The notes under the pieces are model-generated. The model searched no databases, was not told where the DNA came from, and was given only the letters and a program-made list of their open reading frames with translations. Below, piece after piece: positions 1,038 through 6,537 of a stretch of DNA of 35,671 nt. The stretch's first letter is position 1; every line of letters begins with the position of its first letter. Both the position numbers and the translations under genes were made by a program. The stretch lies in assembly GCA_949127675.1 (NCBI GenBank), contig CASBPY010000035.1, positions 1-35,671 of the forward strand, in the 5' to 3' direction. The DNA comes from Synechococcales cyanobacterium PMM_0072. Its GTDB lineage: Bacteria > Cyanobacteriota > Cyanobacteriia > Cyanobacteriales > Chamaesiphonaceae.

Positions 1038-1253
1038 CTACCTGCGGAAAAAATTGTATTGACCGATCGTGCCATTGGCACCGATGATAGTAGCGATATT
1101 TGTTTGTACTGCGATATTGTTAAGTACATTTATATTTATATTAGTATTTACCTGTGTGCGACCACCATTAATTTGATCTGATTGCTGGTCGTTTAACTCG
1201 ATCCATAATTCTTGATTAAGTTTATTGGTTTCGATTTGGTGATTTAAGATCAT
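1038..1253 (-). CDS. Double-glycine leader precursor peptide, divergent core (71 aa)
   Basis: Leader LWIELNDQQSDQINGG, then Asn/Ile-rich core RTQVNTNININVLNNIAVQTNIATIIGANGTIGQYNFFRR. Adjacent to the C39 transporter. Confidence 0.8.
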   Translation of the reverse strand: MILNHQIETNKLNQELWIELNDQQSDQINGGRTQVNTNININVLNNIAVQTNIATIIGANGTIGQYNFFRR

Positions 1254-1422: not shown

Positions 1423-1629
1423 TTAAGCTATGTTGGTTTGAACAATTGCTACTCCAGCAGTATTGCCAAAACCAATAGCATTGCCACTAGCAATTACAAT
1501 GGCACCATTATTTTGATACGTCAGTTTAGAGAAAAATGAAGTATTAAAGGCAATTAAGCCACCATTAATAGCTTCTGTTTGAGTTTCGGTTAGTTCAGTC
1601 CAGAGATTTTGGGAATTACAAAATGTCAT
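1423..1629 (-). CDS. Double-glycine leader precursor peptide (68 aa), paralogue A
   Basis: LWTELTETQTEAINGG leader and 44-aa core LIAFNTSFFSKLTYQNNGAIVIASGNAIGFGNTAGVAIVQTNIA. RBS-like AGGAGCC upstream. Confidence 0.87.
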   Translation of the reverse strand: MTFCNSQNLWTELTETQTEAINGGLIAFNTSFFSKLTYQNNGAIVIASGNAIGFGNTAGVAIVQTNIA

Positions 1630-1805: not shown

Positions 1806-2012
1806 TTAAGCTATGTTGGTTTGAACAATTGCTACTCCAGCAGCGTTGCCAAAACCCAGAGCGTTACCACTAGCAATCACCAGGGCACCATTATTTTGGT
1901 AAGTCAGTTTAGAAGCAATCGCAATATTAAAGGCAATTAAACCACCATTAATAGCTTCTGTTTGAGTTTCAGTTAGCTCAGTCCAGAGATGTTGAGAATT
2001 GTAAGATTTCAT
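1806..2012 (-). CDS. Double-glycine leader precursor peptide (68 aa), paralogue B
   Basis: Leader identical to 1423..1629 through LWTELTETQTEAINGG; near-identical 44-aa core; same upstream sequence TAGGAGCCAAGTGTAATG. Confidence 0.87.
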   Translation of the reverse strand: MKSYNSQHLWTELTETQTEAINGGLIAFNIAIASKLTYQNNGALVIASGNALGFGNAAGVAIVQTNIA

Positions 2013-2179: not shown

Positions 2180-2386
2180 TTAAGCTACGTTGGTTTGAAC
2201 AACTCCAACACCACCAAAATTTAAAATACCAACTGCATTGCCGCTAAATGCAACAACTGCACCATTATTTTGGCTAGTTAATTTAGAGAGGACGGCAAAA
2301 TTTCCGATCACGACACCACCGTTGATAGATTCTGATTGAGTCTCAGTTAAGTCGTTCCAGAATTTAACAGATGTATTGTTAGTCAT
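2180..2386 (-). CDS. Double-glycine leader precursor peptide (68 aa), paralogue C
   Basis: FWNDLTETQSESINGG leader and 44-aa core with conserved SKLTSQNNGA and C-terminal VVQTNVA. Confidence 0.85.
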   Translation of the reverse strand: MTNNTSVKFWNDLTETQSESINGGVVIGNFAVLSKLTSQNNGAVVAFSGNAVGILNFGGVGVVQTNVA

Positions 2387-2472
2387 TGTTTTTTCCTAAA
2401 TTAAAGTGATTTGCTTGAAGCAATACAATCAATGTATGAGACTTTTTAAATGGTGTATATTCGATTTACGAC

Positions 2473-3702
2473 TTAGCAAAAATGAAAAAATTCGTTTTTA
2501 GAATACTTGGGAAAGAGAATCTGATGATACCAAGCACCTCCCACAACTCGATCGGATTGAGCATCATCAATCGACTGCCACAGTGGAGAATGCTGGCGGT
2601 TGAGCTGGCTCGATCTTTTCAAAGTCTCCGATGGTTTCTCACCAAATAACTGCTGATAATCCCGCGCAAACTTCCCCCCCTGAGTAAAACCATAATTCAT
2701 CATCACATCGACAACCTTGAGATCGCTGGTTGCTGCTTCTAATACCTGGCGAATCCGTTGCAAGCGGGTGTGAGTGACAAACCGCATCGGCGAACAGCCA
2801 CAGTGCTGGGCAAAAGCCTTCTGGAGCAGCCGCCCACATACTCCCGCTGCTGCGGCGATATCACCGAGATTGATATCTTCCTCAAGATGAGACTCAATGA
2901 ATGCTTGGGCTTTGCGGACATGACAGGCTAAGGCACCATCGTGTTGATATAGCAGCTCCTCGGAATAATTACTCAGCATCCCCTCAACTAAACAAGCTAA
3001 GAACGCCTTCTCTAACTTTCGCAGTACTAATGAGGAGAAATCTGCTAAATTGCTTTGTTTTGCTGCTTCCCACAGAAATTGGATTAACTTTTTGAGGCTC
3101 ATTCCGAACTCGTGGGTCAGATCGATCCTGGGCATAAATACTACTGGTTGTTTCAAAGATCGATTCAACAACTTACCAACAGCGGATTCGATCGACTTAA
3201 GATCGATCGAAATCAATAATGCTTCTCCTGTATCGCTAGCAATACTCTCCAACCTTTTACCTGGACTAATAATCGTGGCGGTATTGAGCGAACAACAAAA
3301 TGAATGGTCTAAATCGATCTTTTGGTCTAAGAAACCTGCTATTGCAATACAGATGATGTAGCGATCTTCTATTGCCTCTTGTTCTAGTTTAAATGCGCCT
3401 TCCCATTGGATCCTGATTAGAGCTAAATTGCTTGTACTAAGCAGATCTGTATCGAAGCGGCAATCTGTGAGCGGATCTTGCGGACTGATCCGGTGAGCAC
3501 CGATGACGTTTGCCAGCACTTCTTCCATTCTTGTATGACTAGAATTGGGTAGTGCCTGAAGACTATACTCAGCAGCAACTCGACTTTTGCGACGATGATA
3601 AGCTGATGTTTGATCTATTTCAATCTTCCCCTGGTTCAGAATTGTGACTCTGACCGGACGCGGCGGGGGCATTGATTCCACTTCAATCTTATGTTGTTGC
3701 AT
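2473..3702 (-). CDS. AraC-family transcriptional regulator with C-terminal double-glycine-leader-like tail
   Basis: C-terminal AraC HTH region (FIESHLEEDINLGDIAAAAGVCGRLLQKAFAQHCGCSPMRFVTHTRLQRIRQVLEAA...VVDVMMNYGFTQGGKFARDYQQLFGEKPSETL) followed by SPLWQSIDDAQSDRVVGGAWYHQILFPKYSKNEFFHFC. Confidence 0.88.
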   Translation of the reverse strand: MQQHKIEVESMPPPRPVRVTILNQGKIEIDQTSAYHRRKSRVAAEYSLQALPNSSHTRMEEVLANVIGAHRISPQDPLTDCRFDTDLLSTSNLALIRIQWEGAFKLEQEAIEDRYIICIAIAGFLDQKIDLDHSFCCSLNTATIISPGKRLESIASDTGEALLISIDLKSIESAVGKLLNRSLKQPVVFMPRIDLTHEFGMSLKKLIQFLWEAAKQSNLADFSSLVLRKLEKAFLACLVEGMLSNYSEELLYQHDGALACHVRKAQAFIESHLEEDINLGDIAAAAGVCGRLLQKAFAQHCGCSPMRFVTHTRLQRIRQVLEAATSDLKVVDVMMNYGFTQGGKFARDYQQLFGEKPSETLKRSSQLNRQHSPLWQSIDDAQSDRVVGGAWYHQILFPKYSKNEFFHFC

Positions 3703-4078
3703 CGGAAATTGTGGTAGGCGATTTTATGCCCCCACCTTTACATGATTTCTATATGACATCAATACGACAATTGGCTTGTATGTCATACTTATAATTCGAT
3801 TTCACTTACACTACTTTGACTCCTCACAAATGTGAGTATAGACAAAACGTAGTCCATGACTTATTTCAATTAAACCTCGACTAAAGTATATTGATGTAAT
3901 CACATTAATTTAACGTATAAAATCATACGGTTAATTTATGTGACTTTAACAGGTAGTTAAATGACGTACTGATGGCATGTATTAGTTGCAGAGTAAAGGA
4001 TTCAGGTGATAGCGACAATAAATACGAGCAGCGAAAAAAGTTAGTGAATGTCAGCAAAAGCTAATACATGTAGCGTGA

Positions 4079-4195
4079 GTCAAAATTCAGCGAACAGATG
4101 TAGTCCGAACTAAATTAGCGGATTTAGGTATTACCGAGCAAGATATTCTGGATGTACTCAGTTGGGCACGACAGTCTGACAATGAGCGGTTATGA
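4079..4195 (+). pseudogene. Possible degraded antitoxin/DNA-binding-type small gene remnant
   Basis: In-frame VKIQRTDVVRTKLADLGITEQDILDVLSWARQSDNERL* without a credible start (in-frame TGA just upstream). Composition resembles small cyanobacterial antitoxin C-termini. Confidence 0.3.
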
Positions 4196-5686: not shown

Positions 5687-6010
5687 ATGATGGAAATAAA
5701 CACCGATTCAACCACTCAAACGAATAAGGTTGGTAAGAATGCACGGTTGGAAGCGCGTGTGACGCTAGAGCAAAAACAACTTATGGAAAGGGCTGCGGGT
5801 TTGCGCGGACAAAACTTAACTGAATTTATGATTTCAGTTTTAGCTGATGCGGCGACCCAGACTATTAAAGATCGTGAACTGATTGAACTAACCGAGCGAG
5901 ATCGGCTAGTATTTGCCGAAGCACTATTAAATCCCGCTCCTGCGAGCGAACAAGCGATTGCTGATGCAGGATGGTATGCCCAGGTGATAAGTAAACAGAG
6001 ATCGGATTAG
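5687..6010 (+). CDS. DUF1778 (TacA-type) antitoxin
   Basis: ARLEARVTLEQKQLMERAAGLRGQNLTEFMISVLADAA, ...LTERDRLVFAEALLNPAPAS. Overlaps the downstream GNAT gene. Confidence 0.88.
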   Translation: MMEINTDSTTQTNKVGKNARLEARVTLEQKQLMERAAGLRGQNLTEFMISVLADAATQTIKDRELIELTERDRLVFAEALLNPAPASEQAIADAGWYAQVISKQRSD

Positions 6011-6537
6011 TGCTAAATCCTGAATCTACTGACTTTTGCATCGAACTGCTTGCGTCCCATCACGATAAAGCAGCTTTTAGTTGTGGTAACGAACAACTGG
6101 ATCGTTATTTACAGGCTACTGCCACTCAAGATCGAAAGAGAAATATTGCCATTCCTTACGTTATTTACGACAAAGATCGTCAAAAAATAATTGGTTATTA
6201 TACCCTCTCGATGAGTGGTATAAATCTAGAAGAACTACCTCAAGATCTTGCTAAAAAACTTCCCAGATATCCCATTGTCGGGGTCAATCTAATTGGGAGA
6301 TTGGCAGTATCGAATAATTACCGAGGATATGGATGGGGAAAGTTGTTGATTTTAGATGCTCTATATCGCAGTCTAGATATCAGTAAATCTACTGCTTCTT
6401 TTGCTATAGTTGTAGAGGCAATTGATGATGATGCGGTCAGGTTCTATCAAAGATTCGATTTTCAAGCTTTTCCAGATCGAGCATTTAAGTTATTTCGGAC
6501 TATGACAAATATTCAGAGAGCTTTCGATCGACAGTAA
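6010..6537 (+). CDS. GNAT acetyltransferase toxin (TacT-like)
   Basis: F.CGNEQLDRYLQ...QD..R.IA..YVI, GRLAVSNNYRGYGWGKLLILDAL, RFYQRFDFQAFPD. GTG start overlapping the antitoxin stop. Confidence 0.88.
   Translation: MLNPESTDFCIELLASHHDKAAFSCGNEQLDRYLQATATQDRKRNIAIPYVIYDKDRQKIIGYYTLSMSGINLEELPQDLAKKLPRYPIVGVNLIGRLAVSNNYRGYGWGKLLILDALYRSLDISKSTASFAIVVEAIDDDAVRFYQRFDFQAFPDRAFKLFRTMTNIQRAFDRQ

Follow-up and report, generated by a model that had tools for sequence, protein, structure and literature searches.

In C39-type export, what precedes the double glycine (GG) is retained in the cytosol, and the segment after it faces the channel. How the production of secreted peptides is matched to the capacity of the ABC exporter is, to our knowledge, largely unknown for C39 systems. 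Gene expression that is made dependent on export is known from FlgM and sigma-28 in flagella, and the control of the AraC-type activator ExsA is coupled to type III secretion through ExsD, ExsC and ExsE. For the PCAT HetC of Nostoc PCC 7120 it has been proposed that C39 cleavage could leave an N-terminal part in the cell, where it would act together with a transcription regulator, and that the remainder would be exported (PMC10986499); in contrast to the tail described here, the substrate of HetC is not identified and a GG-tailed regulator is not described. The present locus would follow the logic of ExsA and FlgM/sigma-28, in which expression depends on export. In those systems, however, the exported protein is a separate anti-activator or its partner, whereas at this locus the signal for the exporter, an ABC/C39 machine, would be part of the regulator itself.

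The window, i.e. the whole stretch of 35 671 nucleotides that was analysed, belongs to an incomplete (83%) Chamaesiphon MAG (G000). On its reverse strand, positions 2473-3702 (coding part 2476..3702, stop codon 2475-2473) encode an AraC-family regulator of 409 amino acids, all named relatives of which are from Chamaesiphon. The sensor domain AraC_binding_2 (PF14525, residues 60-238, 55.6 bits versus a cut-off of 27) is followed by the C-terminal pair of HTH motifs (HTH_18, PF12833, residues 282-363, 58.8 bits versus a cut-off of 33.6), as is typical of the AraC/XylS family. The best NCBIfam match, far below its cut-off, is NF041686 for AndR-like AraC regulators, which have the same domain order (AraC_binding_2 and HTH_18) and fold. 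This match ends at residue 363, and the C-terminal extension of our regulator is absent from the model. Past the end of the HTH at the same residue, 26 amino acids lead up to the end of the block LWQSIDDAQSDRVVGG and 20 further residues precede the stop codon. The extension consists of the linker SSQLNRQHSP (2584..2613, reverse strand), the 16-residue block itself (residues 374-389, 2536..2583, reverse strand) and the post-GG segment AWYHQILFPKYSKNEFFHFC (residues 390-409, 2476..2535, reverse strand), which differs between lineages. Residues 367-409 are disordered in a predicted structure of low confidence (pLDDT 65), and the tail is therefore likely to be accessible. The original prediction of an AraC protein ending in a double-glycine leader-like block agrees with the open reading frame, the coordinates and Pfam, and also with the profile ranking and the conservation in six Chamaesiphon species given below. 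As the block is C-terminal on a 409-residue regulator and not N-terminal on a small secreted precursor, we refer to it as a leader-like tail and not as a precursor.

Four precursor genes and part of a C39-ABC gene lie downstream of the regulator on the same strand. The precursors are found at 2180..2386 (precursor 1, leader KFWNDLTETQSESINGG), 1806..2012 (precursor 2, leader HLWTELTETQTEAINGG), 1423..1629 (precursor 3, leader NLWTELTETQTEAINGG) and 1038..1253 (precursor 4, leader ELWIELNDQQSDQINGG), the last leader being the one most like the tail of the regulator. Three of these precursors, among them precursor 3, match the CTB family bacteriocin model NF038167 with 15.3, 19.3 and 22.4 bits, below its cut-off of 32. 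The C39 peptidase transporter that had been expected downstream is present as the first 303 amino acids of a C39 peptidase ABC exporter (PCAT; PF03412; 3..911, reverse strand), a gene interrupted by the contig end; a full-length C39-ABC exporter gene is present in L031. The C39 domain matches the structures of PCAT1, ComA and LahT in a comparison with the PDB. The peptidase residues Gln8, Cys14, His90 and Asp106 are all there with a LahT/PCAT1-like spacing, and judged by these residues the exporter is catalytically complete. Between the regulator and precursor 1 lies a spacer of 86 bp (2387..2472), a candidate promoter or operator, which is 96.5% identical to that of the nearest species (G005), compared with 77-88% for the remaining spacers of the cluster. 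The connection between regulator and operon rests on adjacency and on this unusually conserved spacer. A short TTGCT...AGCAA hairpin is found within it. Elsewhere in the window (5687-6537), neighbouring open reading frames of 107 and 175 amino acids, the latter acetyltransferase-like, resemble by eye a DUF1778/GNAT toxin-antitoxin pair.

In LahT, the leader residues V-4, L-7 and L-12 lie in a groove and 13 leader residues suffice (PMC6363468). All six tails known to us, from six species, have the GG and a hydrophobic residue at -4 (Val or Ile) and -12 (Ile or Leu), in agreement with the residues named in the C39/PCAT leader rule, which asks for GG (or GA/GS) behind a helix that is hydrophobic at these two positions. 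The hydrophobic residue at -7 that is seen in LahT leaders is Ser in every tail. The local precursor leaders carry Thr or Ser there as well, so that Ser at -7 may be a local dialect. The tail resembles the leaders of PCAT/AMS substrates (those of LahT, and the cyanobacterial CTB-type/EbfG precursors) in block length and in its hydrophobic -4 and -12 positions, and by sequence also in W/F at -15, an acidic middle, the terminal GG and its place beside a catalytically complete C39 exporter. It is unlike them in being C-terminal on a 370-residue transcription regulator instead of N-terminal on a small peptide, and in having no conserved cargo behind it. LahT was tested on substrates tagged with maltose-binding protein (PMC6363468), so a large N-terminal domain should be no obstacle. 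The proposed resemblance of the 16-residue block to C39 leaders holds position by position, and the four adjacent precursors do have the leaders that were quoted for them.

These similarities were put on a quantitative footing with two profiles. A leader PSSM was built iteratively on 130 double-glycine leaders from small open reading frames near C39 genes, with the AraC tails excluded. The six tails score 8.4-18.5, while among 3486 GG/AG windows in 926 open reading frames of at least 150 amino acids only two apparent non-precursor windows reach 8.4, the remaining windows in this range being essentially only real (long) precursors. Independently, an 18-residue profile made from the AraC tails alone retrieves the regulator of the window from 388 cyanobacterial genomes (E = 8e-11). 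Outside this regulator, the best full-length leader-like matches, each of them weak when taken singly, belong to precursors: two leaders next to a C39 gene in G123 (E = 0.04 and 0.14) and the leader of precursor 4 of the window (E = 0.29). Within the genus, all six tailed regulators are matched by the profile at E-values of 2e-11 to 6e-10, and no further match in the Chamaesiphon genomes is significant. Leader mimicry by the tail is strongly supported by these sequence comparisons.

The tailed AraC regulator is found in six of nine Chamaesiphon genomes, most of which are incomplete MAGs. Its presence in separately assembled genomes, including that of the isolate C. polymorphus CCALA 037 (G002, contig NZ_PVWO01000340), rules out an assembly artefact. 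The tails read PLWQSIDDAQSDRVVGG (G000 and G005), PLWQQLDDDRSERVTGG (G001), PLWHQIDDAHSEQIVGG (G004), VMWQEIDDPLSARVAGG (G002) and PNWQNIDDTQSERVAGG (G003), with the consensus W-x-x-[IL]-D-D-x-x-S-x-x-[VI]-x-G-G; W-15, D-11, D-10, S-7, G-2 and G-1 are invariant. The mean pairwise identity of the five distinct tails is 34% for the linker, 59% for the leader and 10.6% for the first 16 post-GG residues, and the break in conservation sits precisely at the GG. The search for a conserved tail in AraC homologues that had been suggested at the outset thus returns a W/hydrophobic/GG tail in six species. Loss of the GG with conserved flanks had been named as counter-evidence; the reverse is seen.

The regulator adjoins precursors and a C39 gene in G000, G005, G001 and G002, and G004 has the regulator on one contig and a C39 cluster with precursors on another, so that a close C39 exporter is linked to or present with the regulator in five of the six tailed genomes. 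The exception, G003, has two tandem ABC exporters (L037:8313-10933 and 2351-4171), both of which are without a C39 domain. Its AraC protein lacks the HTH, and the GG tail is intact. This looks like a decaying locus or an assembly problem, and we read it as decay. Among the other genomes, G008 has one regulator copy without a tail and a second that is interrupted by a contig end, and no close C39 exporter was found in that genome. No regulator of this AraC family was found in G006 (6.8 Mb, three contigs), which has other C39 clusters, and the contig of G007 stops short of the relevant position. With few and mostly incomplete genomes, the co-occurrence of regulator and C39 exporter is suggestive. 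In another cyanobacterial family, precursors with W-type leaders (LWEEITDTQSEAISGG and LWAEITDTEAAQVVGG; L124:9231-9476 and 12110) flank a C39 exporter that has no AraC gene nearby.

A tail of this kind could have arisen when the stop codon of the regulator was lost and the gene fused to a neighbouring precursor, and could be a functionless relic of that event. The regulator is directly upstream of the precursor array, the linker and leader together are similar in length to a precursor N-terminus, and AraC relatives from outside the genus, including plasmid matches, end just after the HTH (G035, ...PSETLKR; G051). The codons argue otherwise. For one species pair, G000 and its nearest relative G005, the body of the regulator has a dN of 0.15 and a dS of 0.53. 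The 26 codons of linker and leader show one nonsynonymous and eight synonymous changes, and the 16 leader codons show none and six, respectively. The probability of seeing no change at about 36 nonsynonymous sites is P ~3e-8 if the codons evolve neutrally and 0.005 if they evolve at the rate of the body, and by this count the leader block is under strong purifying selection. The tail has furthermore been retained over six lineages in which the protein identity is about 50-76%, far longer than neutral drift allows. A fusion may well be the origin of the tail, and to that extent the fusion reading of the original prediction is plausible, but because of the selection test a neutral leftover is largely refuted as the whole story, and we consider it very improbable.

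Alternatively, cleavage after the GG could export the C-terminal peptide (20 amino acids here) as a pheromone that signals the activity of the regulator or exporter. The geometry suits C39 export, and in the comparison of G000 with G005 the post-GG part is no freer than the body, evolving at its average rate (seven nonsynonymous and four synonymous changes, dN 0.16, dS 0.46) with YSKNEFF kept, which by itself leaves some room for function. Part of this constraint may act on the DNA, given the high identity of the adjacent 86 bp spacer. Across lineages, conservation after the GG is near random and the lengths vary from 20 to about 70 amino acids. The Cys end of the proposed Cys-terminated peptide is not kept; the nearest relative ends in Tyr. 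In G001, the post-GG frame of about 67 amino acids crosses an element of about 60 bp (TATGCAAAATACGATC...TAATGTGTTCGCGATCGGCATTTAC; L032:10249-10298, L032:11239-11287, L034:3138-3196 and L105:378-435), copies of which lie upstream of precursors in three species; in G001 it overlaps the 3' end of the regulator gene. The other copies, in G001, G002 and G004, are intergenic and near precursors, and the element is possibly a shared cis-element. The stop position thus appears to have drifted, and the post-GG peptide is probably not a selected product. In view of its sequence, its length, this drift and the entry of the G001 frame into a putative cis-element, a secreted pheromone is unlikely, and as the main function it was rejected. 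Finally, the tail could be a docking or degradation motif for some other cytosolic partner, its likeness to leaders being convergent and the C39 peptidase not reading it. The Asp pair and the Ser are invariant in the tail and do not occur in every precursor leader, and the retention of the tail in G003, although neither neighbouring ABC gene encodes a C39 domain, speaks for such a motif and against export coupling. On the other hand, the whole pattern, including the GG and the hydrophobic -4 and -12 positions, agrees with that of the leaders in this cluster, and precursor leaders are among the matches of the tail profile. A motif of this type seems unlikely to us.

Of the three readings put forward originally, a tether that senses export fits best with the purifying selection on the leader, the preserved hydrophobic residues and the close C39 exporters. 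We consider it fairly probable that the tail is a selected recognition site, and probably a cleavage site, for the C39 exporter that couples the regulator to the state of export. In this export-coupled mechanism the regulator takes the place of the leader, and the peptidase domain of the exporter would recognise it in the same way as a precursor. With a C-terminal leader the regulator would be the part that is kept in the cell, and cargo becomes unnecessary. Binding or cutting of the tail would tie the regulator to the state of the exporter, and a cut after the GG would give a cytosolic regulator ending in ...GG, and the cell would discard or export the short piece behind the cut, which is unconstrained. 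The precursor operon would thus come under export-coupled control, in which the activity or location of the regulator depends on C39 exporters that are present and free. Two versions can be envisaged. The tail could serve as an assembly checkpoint, with cleavage freeing or activating the regulator as soon as there are exporters, or it could be an occupancy sensor, with precursors competing with the tail for the same groove. Binding, cleavage and regulation of the operon, including its sign, are what we infer from the observed conservation, selection, leader similarity and linkage. The fuller statement, that the regulator is a substrate of the C39 exporter, which docks and cuts its tail, so that the assembly or occupancy of the exporter directly sets how the secreted peptides are transcribed, without a separate anti-activator or sensor kinase, has in our judgement equal chances of being right and wrong.

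The architecture seems to be confined to one genus. When 85 462 species genomes were scanned with a sequence pattern, matches occurred in Chamaesiphon only. No GG-tailed regulator was found elsewhere in searches of 388 cyanobacterial genomes with the HTH end plus tail and with the tail profile, in 60 C39 neighbourhoods of non-Chamaesiphon cyanobacteria or on the plasmids searched, and two long open reading frames weakly matched by the tail profile had no C-terminal match. By these comparisons the tailed architecture is real, selected and genus-restricted. The original prediction knew of no AraC protein with such a tail; likewise, we found no precedent for a GG-tailed regulator in the open literature searched, outside which most subscription journals lie, and within that literature the architecture appears to be undescribed.

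If true, a regulator that carries the recognition signal of the exporter itself would be a one-protein solution. A test in vitro would be easy, since isolated C39 domains, LahT150 for example, are reportedly active. Pipelines for precursor mining do not inspect the C-termini of large proteins for GG motifs, and if cleavage is confirmed such motifs will need to be sought there too. For the organism, the sequence evidence suggests that the Chamaesiphon cell may connect the control of its genes directly with exporter state.
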